Assembly: GCA_943787425.1 (NCBI GenBank)
Contig: CALSMJ010000005.1
Location: 310,001-374,000 of the forward strand
Reading direction: 5' to 3'
DNA: 64,000 nt
DNA from: an uncultured Pseudomonadales bacterium
GTDB taxonomy: Bacteria > Pseudomonadota > Gammaproteobacteria > Pseudomonadales > Azotimanducaceae
Positions 9,533 to 17,319 of this stretch are shown piece by piece; the stretch's first letter is position 1; every line of letters begins with the position of its first letter. The notes below the pieces were generated by a model that saw only the letters and a program-made list of their open reading frames with translations, had not been told where the DNA came from and did no database searches. Made by a program: the position numbers and the translations under genes.

Positions 9533-10009
9533 ATGATTACGATAGTGGTTAATGATGAAGCCAGGACCGTGTCAGCGAGCCCTGATACGCCGCTACTCTG
9601 GGTTTTACGGGACCATCTTCATCTTACAGGCACAAAGTACGGCTGTGGTATTAGCTTGTGCGGCGCTTGTACGGTGCATCTCAATGGTGAAGCCGTCAGA
9701 TCCTGCACCCTGCCGGTGTCGGCTGTCGCAGATCAACGCGTCGAAACCATCGAACATCTCGCAGCGGGCGGCGACTACAATGCAGTTCAAAGCGCCTGGC
9801 TGGAAGAAGATGTGGCCCAGTGCGGTTATTGTCAGTCCGGCCAAATCATGGCGGCGACTGCGCTATTAAATAATAATCCATCCCCTAGCGATGCAGAGAT
9901 CGACGCTGCTATGGCGGGACATATTTGTCGCTGCGGCACCTACCAGAAAATTAGGGCCGCGATTCATCGAGCCGCAAAAGAAACCAAGCGCGGAGGACCT
10001 TCAGCATGA
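9533..10009 (+). CDS. iorA: Two [2Fe-2S] cluster subunit of a molybdenum hydroxylase (isoquinoline 1-oxidoreductase alpha-like)
   Basis: 158 residues, the normal size for the small subunit. The plant-type ferredoxin cluster is held by [15 protein letters not shown] plus a downstream Cys in RSCTLP. The second, C-terminal cluster is held by CGYCQSGQ and [15 protein letters not shown]. An AGAGG sequence lies about 7 nt before the ATG. The stop overlaps the start of the large subunit as ATGA, so the two are translationally coupled. The subunit relays electrons from the molybdenum centre to an external acceptor. The third partner of some homologous aldehyde dehydrogenases, a cytochrome c subunit, is not adjacent. 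Confidence 0.9.
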
Positions 10010-12213
10010 GCAACCTGCCTTCAGACCCTAGCCGCAGAACGTTTTTAAAATCCTCCAGCATGCTCGCAACCGGTAGCTTACTGGTCGGTTTTGAGCTCCC
10101 CTATAGTTTGGCTTCAACCCCCAAACCAAGCGGGGCCGCCTCGCTGATGACGGATGCCTTCATCCGTATTGATCGGGATAACACCATTACGGTCCTCATG
10201 AATCACGCCGAATTCGGCAACGGCGTCTATACCAGCCTTGCGATGATGGTGGCAGAAGAGCTGGATATCGATTGGCAGCGTCTGCAATGGGAAGCCGCGC
10301 CAACCGAGCCCCAGTACTACAGTCCAATTTTCGGCGAATATTTGACCGCCGGCAGCGTATCTACCGCTGGGGCTTTCGTGCCCATGCGCACGGCGGGCGC
10401 AAAAACCAAGGCGCTGCTAGTCCAGGCTGCAAGCCTCCTGTGGCAAAGCGATGCAACCCAATTAACCACCAACGCTGGTTGGATCACGCACATCGACGGT
10501 CGACGCGTGTCTTATGGGGGACTGATAAAAGTCATCCAGGACCACAACCTTGAGCCCCCAAAAACGGTCGATTTGAAACCCACATCCGCCTTCAGTGTGC
10601 TGGGGTTCCCCAAAAAGCGCATTGAAGCCCCGGAAAAAGTAACCGGCCAAGCTGTCTTTGGCATCGACATCAAGCGGCCAGGCATGATCTATGGCGCCGT
10701 CGCACGCCCCCCGGTCTACGGCAGCCGCGTGATTGCCTTTGATGACAAAGCAGCTCGCGCCATACCGGGGGTTTTGAAGGTTAAGGCCATCGATGCTGGC
10801 GTTGTGGTTCTGGCCAAAGACTACTGGACAGCAAGCAAAGGTGCCAAAGCACTCACAGTCCAATGGGATGATCTGGGGCTTGGTCAACTCTCGACCGCGG
10901 CCTTCACCAAAGACTATCGCGCATTGAGCAAAACAGAGGGTCTGTTGGCTGAAGATATTGGCGACGCCAAGGGGCTGCACGCAACGGCAAGCGCCGTTCA
11001 TGAAGCCGTCTATGAGATGCCCTATTTAGCCCACGCCACCATGGAGCCCATGAATTGTACAGCGCAGGTCTTTGACGACCGGTGCGAGATTTGGGTCGGC
11101 ACCCAAAATCAAGGTAATGACCGAACGGTTGTTGCCAAGATGCTCGGGCTACCGGAAACAAGCGTTGTAATCCATCGCACCTTGATGGGTGGCACCTTCG
11201 GTCGTCGAGCAAGCAAAACCGCAGACTTTATCACCGATGCGGTGCAAGCGGCCCAAGGGGAAACGGTCCCCGTGCAAATTATTTGGTCCCGCGAGGAAGA
11301 TATCCGCGGCGGGCACTATCGACCGTTGTTTGTGCATCGGCTTCGCGGCAGCCTTGATGCCGAGGGTTACCCCGCCTCTTGGCATCAAACCGCCGTGGGT
11401 CAATCCATCATGCAGGACACCAAACATGACCCAACGTATATGGTTCGAGACATCGATATTTATTCTGTCGATGGTTGCTTGCAAGAACCCTTCGGCGTCT
11501 TCCCCTATGGCACTGCCTACAAAATACCCCATCATCGTGTCGAAAGTCACAACCCGCCAAAGGTCGGCGTACATCCGCATGAATGGCGAGCTGTCGGACA
11601 CACCCACACAGGGATTGCTTATGAATGCTTTTTAGACGAATTAGCGCACCTGGGTGATAAAGACCCCTTGGCACTTCGACTGCATCTGACCCGAGATAAT
11701 AACCGAATGCACCAATTGCTTTTGCGACTCAAAGCAGTCTCGGACTGGGATCAACCCTTGGCGACAGGACGGGGACGCGGTGTGGCGGCGCGGGTCTATT
11801 CGGTGTCCCCCATTGCGCAAGCCGTCGAGGTAACCGTTGACCGCGATGGCAGCTTCACCGTTGATCGGGTTGTCTGCGTCGTCGATTGTGGATTTGCCGT
11901 GAACCCGTTGGGTATCGAGGCGCAAATTCAAGGCGGCGTGATGCTGGGACTCAATGCCGTGGCTTACGGCGCGATCGATTTGGTGGCTGGCCAGGTTCAG
12001 CAGAGCAACTTTCATGACTATCGGCCATTACGAATTAATCAAATGCCCGACGTTGAGGTTCATATTATGCAAAGTGATGCGCCGCCCACCGGCGTGGGCG
12101 AGCAAGCAACGACGCCGATCGCACCTGCCGTGGCCAATGCGCTATTTCACGCGACGGGCAAGCGAATTCGGCAGTTCCCGCTGGATCGATTCGGCTTTAC
12201 CCTGAAGGCTTAG
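10006..12213 (+). CDS. iorB: Molybdopterin-binding large subunit of a xanthine dehydrogenase-family enzyme (isoquinoline 1-oxidoreductase beta-like), Tat-exported
   Basis: 735 residues beginning with a twin-arginine signal SRRTFLK followed by a hydrophobic stretch (about residues 9-37), so the complex is exported folded to the periplasm. Family landmarks are HATMEPMNC (cofactor pocket), [24 protein letters not shown] and the catalytic Glu region [21 protein letters not shown] near the end. It oxidises N-heterocycles or aldehydes; many environmental homologues act as aldehyde dehydrogenases. The divergent PQQ alcohol dehydrogenase makes the aldehyde role the better guess, but this is inference. 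It overlaps the iron-sulfur subunit by 4 bp. Confidence 0.88.
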
Positions 12214-12433
12214 CTGGGCTCGGGACGCCTGACAGAAGCTGGCCTTGCATCGCGGCAATGACGCTCATCCAACACAATCGGTCGGGGAGACTGGCTGTCG
12301 ACAGCACCCAATGAAACCAAGGGGCTATTGCTTCACCCCTGAACGCCGATAAATACTATCGAGACTCCCGAACTCGATCAGCAACCTCTTTAAGAATTTA
12401 TGTGCAAGCAGCGCATTATTTTTCTGCCGCGAT

Positions 12434-12724
12434 CTATAAACTTGTCCGAACCACCGGCTCAGTCATATAAATAAGGCCCTTTGAGTGATCAAACAGATTA
12501 CAGGCTTGAAACAGCCGATCAAAGACCGCATCTTTGCGGGCTTCATCGGCAATAATCGTAATGATTGCCGCTTCGCCGTACTCGCCAAATTGTCGATCCG
12601 AAAACAGATCGTTCGAACGGCCCGTTTCAATCATCGCAACCGCCACGCCTTCGGTTTCTCGCATCGCGTCCAGCACGTCTGGCCCGCAATCTTTATGGAC
12701 TAATGCACCAATTTCTACTTGCAT
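12434..12724 (-). CDS. PII-like protein, second copy in the DUF1538 operon
   Basis: 96 residues (MQVEIGALVHKDCGPDVLDAMRE...). The beta-alpha-beta layout resembles the PII ferredoxin-like trimer fold, with GEAAIITIIADEARKDAVF matching the second half of the fold. I do not see the T-loop Tyr motif of GlnB, and similarity to canonical PII is low, so the call rests mostly on its position beside a clearer PII and on size. AAAGGGGG lies just before the ATG. It follows the first PII gene by 11 bp. It probably binds a small ligand or nucleotide and gates the DUF1538 protein; that is inference. Confidence 0.6.
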   Translation of the reverse strand: MQVEIGALVHKDCGPDVLDAMRETEGVAVAMIETGRSNDLFSDRQFGEYGEAAIITIIADEARKDAVFDRLFQACNLFDHSKGLIYMTEPVVRTSL

Positions 12725-12735
12725 ACGGCCCCCTT

Positions 12736-13092
12736 TTAATTTGCTGCGTTTAAAATCGCTTCGGGCACATAGGTTGCCACCCGGTCTAGCTTGACCATGT
12801 ACATGATGCCCATGCCCGGCGTGTCTAATTTCCCGGCTAAGTACATTGCCTCAAACACCAGATTCGCTTGTTCTTCAGAGACAATAATCCGGATGACTTC
12901 TTTCTGCTCGTCAATGGTTACCCCTAGTAGCCCCATCCGTTCTCGAATACCGGTTCCCCGGGCATAACTAATGGTTGCCCCTTGTGCTCCGATATTTTTA
13001 GCCGCCGCGAGTACCTCTTCGGCTAACTCTTTCTGCAAAACACAGGTAATCAAAAATGCATCAGATAAATAAGTAATGCTTCGCTCGTTCAT
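12736..13092 (-). CDS. PII family signalling protein linked to a DUF1538 membrane protein
   Basis: 118 residues. The segment GAQGATISYARGTGIRERMGLLG followed by KEVIRIIVSEEQANLVFEAM and GMGIMYMVKLDRVATYVPE fits the PII fold (the T-loop region, then the second beta-alpha unit and C-terminal strand). The conserved uridylylated Tyr context of GlnB/GlnK (LYRGAEY) is absent, so control by GlnD is unlikely. Its start overlaps the stop of the upstream DUF1538 gene by 4 bp, which is strong evidence for cotranslation and a physical partnership. PII proteins bound to transporters usually block or open them according to bound ADP/ATP or another nucleotide. Confidence 0.75.
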   Translation of the reverse strand: MNERSITYLSDAFLITCVLQKELAEEVLAAAKNIGAQGATISYARGTGIRERMGLLGVTIDEQKEVIRIIVSEEQANLVFEAMYLAGKLDTPGMGIMYMVKLDRVATYVPEAILNAAN

Positions 13093-14825
13093 AGCAACGC
13101 CTCCGTTACGGTATGCTTTTCAGACGACTTCTTTCGATGTAAGTATTGGATCACCAATCCCATGGAAAGTACTGCCAAGATCGGGCAAATACTGGCCAGG
13201 GACAAAATGCCGAAGCCTTCAACGGCCGAGACCGCCGAGCCCAGCCCTAAGCCCATCGCCAAGACCAATGGTACGGTGACTGGCCCCGTCGTGACCCCAG
13301 CACTATCCCAAGCCACATTCACGAATTCTTCGGTCGAAAATATGGTTAAGAAGACGCCCAGTAAATACAGCGGAATCAAGACTGTCATGAGATCAAAGCC
13401 AAGCACCAGTTTCGCAATCCCCAAGGCAATTCCGACAGCGACCCCCGTTGCCACGCTGTACATGAGCATTGATTTCTTGAAGGCGCCATTGGTTAAGTTT
13501 TGCACCGTTAAACCCAGCGCATTGAGGGCTGGCTCAGCTAGGGTCGCACCGAACCCCATCAGAAAGGCAAACGCAATCACAATGCAGATACCAACCAGCT
13601 CGGGATAAATCGGTGAGAACTGGCTAATGGGCAGCTCCATAAAGGCGGCCGGCAGAACACTACCTGCCTGAGAACCAATCGCACCCAGGCCATAGGTCAA
13701 GCCGACGTTGAAAATACACATGCCCACGATGCTGAGCGTAAGCCCGTAAAACGTCACCATTCGATTGGGCAATTTCGACCGTAACACAATGAACAAGACG
13801 AACATTAAGAACAACACCAGCGGTAAGATCGCCCGCACCCCCGTAACGATTTCGATCAAAGGTGTTTGATCCCAAGCCGTGGGTGCCACTGCGACCGCAT
13901 CCGACGCCAATTGCGCCGCCTGACGAATCTCATCAGGTGTGACCGTAAGGGACATGAATATCGCCAGGATCAGCACGGCTAAAATTGGAAATAAGGAGGC
14001 AAGGGTTACCACCCCAAATCCGGATAGAGAGGATTGGCCCTTGCCCGCTGCATTGGCGATCCCGATCCCTAACGACAAAACCAAAGGCACCGTCACCGGG
14101 CCGGTGGTCACCGCGCCACAATCCCAGGCAAGCCCAAGAACCGACCGCAGATTCGGATCAAGCCAGGCGTACCCGGTTAAAATCATAACCGGCACCAATG
14201 CGCAGTAGATCATGGGTTTAAGCGACCAGCCGCGAACAAACCGAATCGTTCCGAGGATCGCCGCCAGACCAACGCCTGCGCCCACCATCAGCACCAACGG
14301 CATGGTCCAGTTATTGAGCAGCTCATAAAGATAGGGCGCCGAATTGACATCAACCGAAGATCCAAAGGCCTGCAACGCCCCAATTGCTGGCTCTGCGAAG
14401 GTGACGCCCACCCCCAACATACCGATGATAATCAGGACAACGGTCATGGACGCTTTCTTCGGCAGGTTATCGCCAATTATATTGCCGAAGGGCATGAGGC
14501 CGGTGTTGAGACCTTCCATGAAAATCGCCAATCCCACGATCACCGCCACCAAACCGCCGCCCAACATCAGTGCTGAATCGATGGGATGTCTCAAAATCAA
14601 AATCTGAAATAAAATTAAGTAGGCTGCGAGCGGCACCACGGCCTTCACCTGATCCATAATACGGGTGTAACAATAAGGGCCGATCAAGGCCAAGGATTGC
14701 TGTAGAGAGATATCAAGCCGTTTATCAACTTTAGGCGCGCTCGGGTCTAACTTTGGCGCCAAAACATTGTAGCTGATGGTCTTATGGTGAAAAGACACGG
14801 CATTCAGATAGTCCGAATAGCGCAT
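13089..14825 (-). CDS. Duplicated DUF1538 integral membrane protein, putative transporter or channel
   Basis: 578 residues and highly hydrophobic, with roughly 12-14 membrane segments after a soluble N-terminus of about 60 residues. Two homologous halves are visible. GVTFAEPAIGAL in the first half matches GATLAEPALNAL in the second, and VTTGPVTVPLVLSLGIG matches VTTGPVTVPLVLAMGLG. Such pseudo-symmetry with conserved Glu/Pro and Thr/Gly motifs inside membrane helices is typical of inverted-repeat transporters. DUF1538 has no established substrate that I know of. It is the first gene of a three-gene operon with two PII-like proteins. An 8 bp inverted repeat lies in its leader (14839-14877). Confidence 0.8.
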   Translation of the reverse strand: MRYSDYLNAVSFHHKTISYNVLAPKLDPSAPKVDKRLDISLQQSLALIGPYCYTRIMDQVKAVVPLAAYLILFQILILRHPIDSALMLGGGLVAVIVGLAIFMEGLNTGLMPFGNIIGDNLPKKASMTVVLIIIGMLGVGVTFAEPAIGALQAFGSSVDVNSAPYLYELLNNWTMPLVLMVGAGVGLAAILGTIRFVRGWSLKPMIYCALVPVMILTGYAWLDPNLRSVLGLAWDCGAVTTGPVTVPLVLSLGIGIANAAGKGQSSLSGFGVVTLASLFPILAVLILAIFMSLTVTPDEIRQAAQLASDAVAVAPTAWDQTPLIEIVTGVRAILPLVLFLMFVLFIVLRSKLPNRMVTFYGLTLSIVGMCIFNVGLTYGLGAIGSQAGSVLPAAFMELPISQFSPIYPELVGICIVIAFAFLMGFGATLAEPALNALGLTVQNLTNGAFKKSMLMYSVATGVAVGIALGIAKLVLGFDLMTVLIPLYLLGVFLTIFSTEEFVNVAWDSAGVTTGPVTVPLVLAMGLGLGSAVSAVEGFGILSLASICPILAVLSMGLVIQYLHRKKSSEKHTVTEALL

Positions 14826-14838
14826 ATTTTGATTCCCC

Positions 14839-14877
14839 TAGTAGGTCAAAGACAACTGATCTAACCTGAACCTACTA
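14839..14877 (-). promoter_or_regulatory. Inverted repeat in the leader of the DUF1538-PII operon
   Basis: TAGTAGGT at 14839-14846 is repeated inverted as ACCTACTA at 14870-14877, 13 to 52 nt before the DUF1538 start codon. It could be an operator for a dimeric regulator or a stem in the mRNA leader. No regulator gene is adjacent, so function is open. Confidence 0.3.
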
Positions 14878-15186
14878 CATTTTGAACAAAATACTAGCCA
14901 AAATTGAATAATCTCAGTTAAGTCTTGATCCCTCAGAGCCTAATAAGACCGAATCAAGACGAATCATCCGACCGCTTGACCGATACTGGCAGCGATCAGC
15001 TTGGCCCGCTCACCAACAACTTCGCCTGACAAGGCTGAATCAATGCTCGTGGCTGTTTTCTCAACTCGAATCGCGTTGCACGTGGTAAGCTTTGTCACAC
15101 AAAGGCCGTCATACTCTGTCCATCAGACCAACACCCAGCGGGTTAAGAACCGACGGTTCACGGGCTTCAAAACTAAAGGAACGCGC

Positions 15187-17319
15187 GTGCAACCAATTTC
15201 ATTTTTATTACTACTGACCCTCTTTGGGCTGACGGCGTGTGAAGCCCCTAGCAAGGTTCAAGACCCCATTCTTGCGCCCCCCGTTGCCGAGCAAGTGCCG
15301 ACCTGGATCGGCGCCGGCGACCAACGACGTCTAGATGAATATTATTGGCTTCGAGATGATACTCGATCCGATCCAAAGGTCTTAGCGCTGCTCGCGGCTG
15401 AGAACGCCTATGGCCAACAGCTTATGGCTCACACCGAGGGACTCCAAACGACCCTCTTTCAAGAGATTACCAATCGATTACCCAAAAAGGATGCAACTGT
15501 GCCGATTGCGCTCGGGGGCTACCAATACTATCGCGCCTTTGAACCTGGTCTTGAACACCCCATCTATAAACGCTTCGACAATAATGACCCAGCAACTACG
15601 GAAATTGTGCTGGACGTCAACCAACTCGCACAGAACTTTGATTATTTTACCGTCGGCAACTGGGTCGTAAACCCGGCACAAGATCTAATCGCCTATGCCG
15701 AAGACACCCTTAGTCGGCGGATCTACACTTTGAGAATCAAAGCCATCGGATCCGACGCGGCGCATCCAGACGTCATCACCGGCGCAGCACCGTCGATGGC
15801 CTGGAGTCAGGATGGCCAAACCCTGTTCTACATTAAGAAACACCCGCAGACGCTGCTCGAAAACGAAGTCTATCGGCATCAACTTGGCACCGATCAAAGT
15901 GAGGATCAGTTGGTTTATCGGGAGACGGACCCAACCTTCTCCCTTTGGCTGGAAGAGAGTCGCAGCAAAACCTTCATCTTCATTAGGGCCAGCAGCACCG
16001 ATAGCACCGAGACGCTCATCATTCCCCGAGCGTCCCCAGCAGACGCGCCCTACCCACTGCTCGCACGCGCAGACCAACATGAATACCGAGCGCGGCATCT
16101 CAATAATCACTTCTACTTATTAACCAACGATCAGGCCCCAAACTACCGATTGATGCGCGTTGAAGTGGGGAATGCTCACGAACAATCGGCCTGGAAACCC
16201 TTGATCACGCCGGATCCCGCCATCTTTATCGAGGATTTTGAAGTTTTCGATACCTTTATCGTGACCAAGGAAATCGAAGCCGGCATTGCGCGGCTGCGAA
16301 TCTATGACAAAAGCGGTCAACCGACTCGGGATATACCGATCGAAGATGTTCCCGCAACGCTCAATTTGTCTGCTAACCCAGATGCGACCGCAAGCGTTGT
16401 TCGATATGAGCTGAGCAGTTTGAAAACGCCAGACAGCACGCTTTCTTTTAATACCGAGACGGGCGACACACAATTGCTCAAGCAAGCCAAAGTAGACGGC
16501 GCCTTCAATCCGGATCATTACACGACGGAATATCATACTTTTAGGGCTTCCGATGGCGCACAGGTGCCCATATCCCTCGTTTATAACCACACCTTAAAGC
16601 GCCAACCCCGACCCGCCTATCTTTACGCCTATGGATCTTACGGCTATTCCACCGAGCCTTATTTTCGATCTGCGAGCCTTTCGTTGTTAGACCGCGGGTT
16701 CGTTTTTGCCATCATCCATGTACGCGGCGGCCAAGAACTAGGCCGGCAGTGGTACGAACAGGGCCGCCTATTTCAAAAGAAAAATACCTTTACCGATTTT
16801 ATTGAGGGCTCTCGATATTTAGCTGCCACCGGGTTGGCGGATCCCAACAATCTGTTCGCTGCGGGCGGCTCTGCTGGCGGCCTGCTGATGGGCGTCATTG
16901 CCAATGAGGCACCCGACGTCTATCAAGGCATTATTGCCAAAGTGCCCTTCGTTGACGTTGTGACGACCATGCTCGACGACAGCATTCCGCTCACCACTTC
17001 TGAGTATCGCGAGTGGGGGGATCCTAGGATTGCCGCCGACTATGATTATATGTTGTCTTACTCGCCTTATGATCAAGTTAAGGCACAGAACTATCCGAAC
17101 ATGTTGGTCACGACCGGACTACACGACTCTCAGGTGCAATATTTTGAGCCCGCAAAATGGGTTGCTCGACTGCGTCGCCTGAAGACCGACGACAATCATT
17201 TGATATTGGATACTGATATGGCCTCGGGTCACAGTGGCCCCTCGGGCCGCTATGAGCGCTACCGAAGAACGGCACTGGAATATGCCTTCATTTTGGACCA
17301 TTTAGACACGGCGCAGTAA
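15187..17319 (+). CDS. ptrB: Prolyl oligopeptidase family serine peptidase (oligopeptidase B type), lipoprotein
   Basis: I place the start at the GTG at 15187 (710 residues) because AAAGGA precedes it by 6 nt. The protein then begins with a lipoprotein signal, PISFLLLLTLFGLTAC, with lipobox L-T-A-C; the longer open frame from 15001 adds a non-protein-like leader. A seven-bladed propeller region is followed by the alpha/beta hydrolase domain, with catalytic Ser562 in GGSAGG, Asp647 in TGLHDSQVQY and His682 in ASGHSGPSG. YAYGSYGYS and HVRGGQELGRQWYEQGR are S9A oligopeptidase B signatures. It cleaves short peptides after basic residues. A lipid anchor would put it in the cell envelope, unlike cytosolic PtrB of enterobacteria. 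Confidence 0.88.
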   Translation: MQPISFLLLLTLFGLTACEAPSKVQDPILAPPVAEQVPTWIGAGDQRRLDEYYWLRDDTRSDPKVLALLAAENAYGQQLMAHTEGLQTTLFQEITNRLPKKDATVPIALGGYQYYRAFEPGLEHPIYKRFDNNDPATTEIVLDVNQLAQNFDYFTVGNWVVNPAQDLIAYAEDTLSRRIYTLRIKAIGSDAAHPDVITGAAPSMAWSQDGQTLFYIKKHPQTLLENEVYRHQLGTDQSEDQLVYRETDPTFSLWLEESRSKTFIFIRASSTDSTETLIIPRASPADAPYPLLARADQHEYRARHLNNHFYLLTNDQAPNYRLMRVEVGNAHEQSAWKPLITPDPAIFIEDFEVFDTFIVTKEIEAGIARLRIYDKSGQPTRDIPIEDVPATLNLSANPDATASVVRYELSSLKTPDSTLSFNTETGDTQLLKQAKVDGAFNPDHYTTEYHTFRASDGAQVPISLVYNHTLKRQPRPAYLYAYGSYGYSTEPYFRSASLSLLDRGFVFAIIHVRGGQELGRQWYEQGRLFQKKNTFTDFIEGSRYLAATGLADPNNLFAAGGSAGGLLMGVIANEAPDVYQGIIAKVPFVDVVTTMLDDSIPLTTSEYREWGDPRIAADYDYMLSYSPYDQVKAQNYPNMLVTTGLHDSQVQYFEPAKWVARLRRLKTDDNHLILDTDMASGHSGPSGRYERYRRTALEYAFILDHLDTAQ

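Follow-up and report, generated by a model that had tools for sequence, protein, structure and literature searches.

The window, the whole stretch of 64,000 nucleotides analysed here, contains a gene for a DUF1538 membrane protein (D) followed directly by genes for two small, unlike proteins of PII type (P1 and P2), which raises the question of what such a membrane protein carries and what two different PII proteins would do beside it. A pair of DUF1538 proteins has a published function: UmpAB of Halomonas zhaodongensis, described as a hetero-dimer, is a Na+(Li+,K+)/H+ antiporter that works best at pH 9 (PMC5484666). The terms "PII" and "P-II" do not occur in the main text of that paper, and a literature search without most subscription journals found no report of a link between DUF1538 and PII.

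The initial annotation had proposed a three-gene operon on the minus strand, running from 14825 down to 12434, and the open reading frames confirm it. D and P1 overlap by 4 bp (13089-13092), P1 and P2 are separated by a gap of 11 bp (12725-12735), and a purine-rich stretch lies just 5' of each of the three start codons (Table 1). Promoter-like sites numbered 2, compared with 2.8 in the shuffled background, and terminator-like sites 7, little above their background of 3.6 (SD 2.5); no Rfam RNA family was detected in 12000-15300. In the genome, which is 93.7% complete, the one further PII revealed by a Pfam P-II search is a canonical GlnK encoded on a different contig (G000:C3), and a DUF1538 search revealed no second DUF1538 gene. 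The window neighbors, assigned by eye, resemble a two-gene molybdenum hydroxylase (9533-12213, plus strand), a prolyl oligopeptidase (15001-17319, plus strand) and a cytochrome P450 (17401-18669, minus strand).

Table 1. Genes of the operon and conserved segments within them (window positions)
Feature	Coordinates	Strand	Description
D	13089..14825	minus	578 aa; fused UmpA-like + UmpB-like membrane protein with two DUF1538 halves
P1	12736..13092	minus	118 aa; PII-like, passes Pfam P-II
P2	12434..12724	minus	96 aa; divergent PII-fold protein without Pfam match
FAEP, D residues 143-146	14388..14399	minus	conserved acidic motif at helix break, N half
DCGAVTTGPV, D residues 235-244	14094..14123	minus	conserved motif ending at helix break, N half
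LAEP, D residues 429-432	13530..13541	minus	C-half counterpart of FAEP
DSAGVTTGPV, D residues 507-516	13278..13307	minus	C-half counterpart of DCGAVTTGPV
P1 T-loop region, residues 42-63	12904..12969	minus	not clearly better conserved than the rest of P1
P2 T-loop region, residues 34-52	12569..12625	minus	among the best-conserved parts of P2

Named genomes were scanned with an alignment of D (A1; 25 proteins, the window's and 24 of 38 references), and the best 80 of 522 confirmed relatives were kept as loci, a selection that favors close relatives. In 77 of these 80 loci the order D-P1-P2 is preserved, and the remaining three (L136, L164, L172) end at a contig edge 1, 344 and 299 bp after D, with the first PII still visible in the latter two; L153, counted among the 77, breaks off within P2 at a contig end. 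Judged by record titles, most of the loci come from Alphaproteobacteria, SAR116 among them; the others include some Gammaproteobacteria, three Nitrospinaceae and one Opitutales genome (L172). A Pseudomonadales MAG (L093) carries an operon 97% identical to that of the window. This arrangement is far beyond chance. The linkage also holds in loci chosen without reference to the small proteins: a PII lies within 1.4 kb downstream in 29 of 30 loci selected by DUF1538 score alone and in all 29 loci of a relatives search, and loci selected via P1 were excluded from this evidence because P1 itself had chosen them. The PII-DUF1538 linkage spans phyla and is a conserved PII-transporter gene linkage of the kind seen in the PII-gated transporters GlnK-AmtB and SbtB-SbtA; because the pairing recurs in distant bacteria, it suggests that cells control the exchanger by PII-type sensing. 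A scan of the wider surroundings for ORFs of at least 120 aa (80 loci, many of them cut by contig ends and 45 longer than 13 kb) revealed no family, beyond D, P1 and P2, in more than 5 of 15 clusters.

Both small proteins belong to the PII superfamily, by different routes. P1 scores 36.9 bits against Pfam P-II (cut-off 25), and P2 matches no Pfam family at E <= 10, P-II included. An AF2 model of P2 (built from 54 rows including the window's, mean pLDDT 83.8) gave 154 Foldseek matches at E <= 0.001; of the 50 listed, 49 are of the PII family and the remaining one is DUF3240, and the title of one PDB entry among the matches describes a nitrate carrier gated by PII. VIA aligned P2 with GlnZ at Z 11.4 over 90 residues (3.7 A), and comparison of the P2 and P1 profiles by hhalign returned 98.9% with an E-value of 2.6e-17. 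As a single sequence P2 has no match among the sequences of solved structures, and its profile yields weak matches only, the top two being PII chains of 9p1x (E 0.016 and 0.35), an entry that we suspect to be the NifI1/NifI2 complex. Fold and sequence link to other PIIs thus place P2 in the superfamily. The initial annotation had spoken of two different PII-like proteins and had let its case depend on a PII fold in both and on a conserved neighborhood in relatives; the proteins qualify, P1 by Pfam and P2 by predicted fold, and the neighborhood is that described above.

The membrane protein was said to be a duplicated, multi-pass DUF1538 protein, and Pfam DUF1538 indeed covers D in two stretches (E 4.6e-103, 343.5 bits, cut-off 22.6). 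The best match of NF041627 (UmpA) lies in the N half and that of NF041628 (UmpB) in the C half, at 206.4 of the 490 and 177.2 of the 500 bits that these equivalog models demand, and D is 33-42% identical to split-pair relatives. Scores short of these cut-offs are general among the DUF1538 proteins scored: 91-111 bits for a Methylocystis split pair, 164-175 for a clostridial fused protein, 173-225 for a fused protein linked to a three-domain PII chain, 334-363 on the best subunit model for two split pairs accompanied by PII and a CBS-domain protein, and 409-455 over two stretches for another fused protein with PII and CBS. None of nine such proteins reaches either cut-off and D lies under both, so no PII-linked DUF1538 protein examined is a certified UmpA or UmpB. 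The earlier view that the transported substance is unknown is nonetheless too pessimistic, in that DUF1538 pairs are the published antiporter UmpAB (PMC5484666), though D falls far under the NCBI cut-offs; the ion that D would carry is assigned from its family.

In the 25-protein alignment each half of D has two conspicuous motifs, AEP and WDxxxVTTGPVTVPL. In an AF2 model of D (pLDDT 75.9, pTM 0.76), helix breaks at residues 144-145, 240-244, 430-431 and 512-516 coincide with these motifs, and E145, D235, E431 and D507 lie at or just before the breaks. When the window is compared with 15 split pairs, at least 90% of this set share the four residues and parts of the motifs. Broken helices bearing carboxylates are a usual feature of secondary exchangers. 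D has no sequence relative in the PDB and no Foldseek match at E <= 0.001; its best VIA match (Z 5.9 over about 100 residues) is cytochrome ba3 oxidase, and rows for the Na+/Ca2+ exchanger NCX_Mj reach Z 3.7-4.3, values that may mean nothing for a helical protein. We claim no fold family for D.

The nucleotide site of the two PII proteins is altered to different degrees. We take T29, G35, G37, G87, G89, R101 and R103 to be positions of the PII nucleotide pocket. At T29, G35, G37, K58, G87 and G89 the residue is retained by 47 or 48 of the 48 P1 rows. TGxxGDGK, Q39, R101 and R103 are missing from nearly all P1 and P2 rows, which sets both apart from canonical GlnB/GlnK; of this latter set, P1 retains only G87 and G89 (Q39 in 2 of 48 rows) and P2 only G89. 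Judged by alignment, P1 retains part of the nucleotide pocket and P2 hardly any. The roles of Q39, K58, Y51 and TGxxGDGK in canonical PII are described in PMC6516651. That neither protein has the uridylylation Tyr of GlnB, as had been asserted, holds for both families: in the Tyr-51 column, 42 of 48 P1 rows have Gly, and the commonest four residues of P2, found in 50 of 54 rows, are Gln, Glu, Gly and Asp. The T-loop of the window's P2 does contain a Tyr, Y49, at a position where most of the relatives listed have another residue and a few have Tyr. The P2 T-loop is conserved above the remainder of the protein: over 42 rows it reaches 3.21 bits, compared with 2.17 for the other positions (rank 3 of 78 alignment windows), and over all 54 rows 2.60 compared with 1.96 (rank 4). 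The P1 T-loop (3.25 compared with 3.06 bits, rank 38 of 97) is not clearly above the rest of P1.

Split DUF1538 pairs, in which the two halves are separate genes, offer a comparison for the fused protein. The set of 40 was drawn, with longer flanks, from the survey by DUF1538 score (27 of 28) and the relatives search (13 of 14). One PII follows directly downstream in 39 of these loci, and a second PII in none of the 40; a CBS-domain ORF, recognized with a profile built on three ORFs to which Pfam assigns CBS, comes after the PII in 29 and is missing in 11. One split locus (L210) has neither PII nor CBS. Further split loci carry PII and CBS (L183, L184) or PII only (L182), and fused DUF1538 genes of another type also occur with PII and CBS (L177, L178, L180, L181). 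The CBS protein is about 130 aa long, as at L183 4077-4478, L184 5361-5759 and L177 6276-6662. L179 combines a fused gene with PII and a split pair that lacks a downstream PII; we leave it unclassed because the PII-like ORF of that pair sits upstream.

In other relatives the PII domains themselves are joined. Searches in the window's order and family found eight genomes (L173-L176, L257-L260) in which the gene after a fused DUF1538 gene encodes one chain of 379-420 aa containing three PII-like domains. The chain adjoins fused DUF1538 in all eight cases found; in L173 a contig edge truncates the DUF1538 gene. In L257-L260 the P1 profile recognizes three domains (the third of L260 is partial), and the successive thirds, compared with P1 by profile across all eight, score 97.3, 99.8 and 98.0%; Pfam marks one or two of the three. 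We regard these chains as candidate natural single-chain PII trimers. DUF1538 also occurs in nine plasmid records, of which we opened seven (H5 and H8 were left out because H4 and H7 represent their species), and a PII follows it in all seven. The five clostridial plasmid loci opened (L264, L265, L266, L269, L270) all have fused DUF1538 and then a chain of two PII domains. In three of these five the two-domain chain is annotated simply as P-II family nitrogen regulator, and in the other two it is unannotated. A FastTree analysis of 89 domains taken as subsamples (16 P1, 26 P2, 16 single PIIs, 24 from three-domain chains, 6 from two-domain chains and 1 GlnK) clusters the P2 rows, with one single PII among them, at a support of 0.83, and places the middle domain of the three-domain chains with P1 and not with P2; because the domains are short and support is moderate, we use this tree only as a guide.

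Cyclic-nucleotide-binding domains (CNBD) form another recurrent neighbor. Among 78 loci with at least 600 bp visible on one side (from the best 80 of 522), a CNBD ORF stands directly beside the operon in 31, which corresponds to 5 of 15 clusters at 80% identity and 2 of 4 at 70%. It lies upstream on the same strand in L122-L126, L128, L132-L135, L137-L144, L159 and L160, and downstream, on either strand, in L095-L097, L099, L102, L104, L116 and L163. At L163 the downstream protein is a Na+/H+ exchanger fused to a CNBD (by Pfam), and a Na+/H+ exchanger with CNBD, recognized by similarity, lies divergently upstream in L168, L170 and L171. Thirteen genomes, ten with and three without a CNBD neighbor, contain 3-21 CNBD matches each, or about 0.16-0.7% of genes if one gene per kb is assumed, so that roughly 0.05-0.2 of the 15 clusters would be expected to have one on either side by chance, compared with the five observed; these five are an upper bound on independent cases because the clusters are mutually related. 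The window itself has neither a CBS nor a CNBD neighbor beside the operon.

Known systems resemble this one in part. Like UmpAB, D consists of two DUF1538 units, UmpA-like and then UmpB-like, with acidic residues common to D and the split pairs; it differs in being fused in one chain, in falling under the NCBI cut-offs and in having two PIIs alongside. GlnK-AmtB shares the adjoining genes for a membrane transporter and a PII-fold protein, but involves another transporter family, one PII, a nitrogen signal and the uridylylation Tyr that is missing here. SbtB-SbtA likewise places a small PII-like protein, with nucleotide-site side chains unlike those of canonical PII, beside an ion-coupled transporter, but it has one PII and transports bicarbonate; SbtB binds ATP, ADP, AMP, cAMP and c-di-AMP (PMC10117731). 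In both of these systems a trimeric transporter is held by a PII trimer via T-loops, whereas UmpAB is reported as a hetero-dimer. NifI1 and NifI2 of methanogens are, like P1 and P2, encoded by two unlike adjacent PII genes, and both are required for their effect (PMC9765008); their target is nitrogenase and not a membrane protein, whereas the conserved neighbor of P1 and P2 is DUF1538. PstA/DarA, CutA and other PII-like proteins share a PII-like fold with loops changed from GlnB, but have other ligands or roles, and the accessible text of PMC6516651 does not mention a DUF1538 link for them.

Based on these comparisons, we lean modestly toward the view that the operon encodes a DUF1538 cation/proton antiporter gated by a mixed PII trimer, which would sense an adenine-type nucleotide through a changed site. 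D, as one fused chain of the UmpAB family, would exchange cations for protons; P1 and P2 would in the likeliest case form a mixed PII trimer, which would dock its T-loops on the cytoplasmic face of D and slow or stop exchange depending on the adenine-type nucleotide bound. P1 would supply the partial nucleotide pocket and P2 the highly conserved T-loop. We infer the gating, ligand, ion, stoichiometry, docking, mixed trimer and antiport by fused D from several lines of analogy. Antiport by D is proposed after UmpAB (PMC5484666) and the four acidic residues that D has in common with the split pairs. Binding of P1 and P2 to the cytoplasmic face, locking the carrier, is proposed after GlnK-AmtB and SbtB-SbtA (PMC10710835, PMC10117731); a trimer of unlike subunits, one of the two options of the initial annotation, gains indirect support from the three-domain PII chains that exist beside D homologues, and that unlike adjacent PIIs can be jointly required is exemplified by NifI1/NifI2 (PMC9765008). 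An adenine-type signal may be supposed because related systems have CBS or CNBD partners and part of the P1 pocket remains. Plasmids with umpA and umpB alone are active in E. coli (PMC5484666), so antiport seems able to proceed without a dedicated PII, although E. coli has PII proteins of its own, and the PII looks like a regulator and not a part of the exchanger. Several observations weigh against the gated-antiporter reading: D is only 33-42% identical to the split pairs and falls under the UmpA/UmpB cut-offs, and nearly all P1 and P2 rows lack TGxxGDGK, Q39, R101 and R103, which makes the adenine-type ligand conjectural; in addition, UmpAB is reported as a hetero-dimer, the P1 T-loop is not clearly over-conserved, CBS is missing in 11 of 40 split loci and PII in L210, the window lacks a CBS or CNBD neighbor, and D lacks a convincing fold relative.

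Several other readings would accommodate part of these data. D could be a PII-gated transporter for cargo other than Na+, K+ or Li+, such as bicarbonate, ammonium or an organic ion, and its low identity to the split pairs, its scores under the NCBI cut-offs and the ammonium, urea and bicarbonate carriers (PMC10710835) and nitrate carrier (PDB title) served by known PII gates all fit this; the membrane-core carboxylates that D shares with the split pairs and the CNBD-bearing Na+/H+ exchangers adjoining the operon in four related loci (L163, L168, L170, L171) do not, and we think this reading somewhat unlikely. The arrangement of P1 and P2 admits a further alternative, put forward in the initial annotation as one gate per half of D, in which they would form two separate homotrimers. 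D does have two unlike halves to match two unlike PIIs, and P1 and P2 fall in separate tree groups; on the other hand, split pairs have two such halves and yet manage with one PII (39 of 40 loci) and never two, and the three- and two-domain chains fit poorly. We therefore do not favor this arrangement and consider it improbable.

The remaining readings deny the small proteins a special role. P1 passes the Pfam P-II cut-off, as would be expected if P1 and P2 were ordinary nitrogen-status GlnB/GlnK merely encoded with D, but a canonical GlnK is present elsewhere in the genome, Y51, Q39, TGxxGDGK, R101 and R103 are missing in nearly all rows of both proteins, and the linkage to DUF1538 persists across phyla; this explanation is very improbable. 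P2, being short and without a Pfam match, might instead be a functionless, decayed remnant of P1. A second PII ORF occurs, however, in all 77 loci with room for it (from the best 80 of 522; L153 is contig-cut), and the P2 T-loop exceeds the remainder of P2 in conservation, so that decay is to our minds practically ruled out. Returning to the antiporter gated by a mixed trimer, we offer a broader and more tentative generalization, in which our confidence is short of even: DUF1538 proteins may as a rule be nucleotide-gated ion exchangers whose PII gate was repeatedly elaborated into unlike subunits, whether PII plus CBS, two PII genes, a two-domain chain or a three-domain chain, which would be a natural trimer within one polypeptide. 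With two PII genes, P1 alone would sense and P2 only dock, so that the signal would be read asymmetrically, and CNBD neighbors might provide a second-messenger input in some lineages.

Gating by PII or PII-like proteins is known for few transporters, namely those for ammonium, urea and bicarbonate (PMC10710835) and, by a PDB title, nitrate. If the proposal is true, PII control of a cation/proton antiporter would make a cell's pH and salt homeostasis respond to its energy or second-messenger state, a coupling that would concern SAR116 and related bacteria, among others. The three-domain PII chains would make the role of unlike subunits in a PII trimer directly testable.
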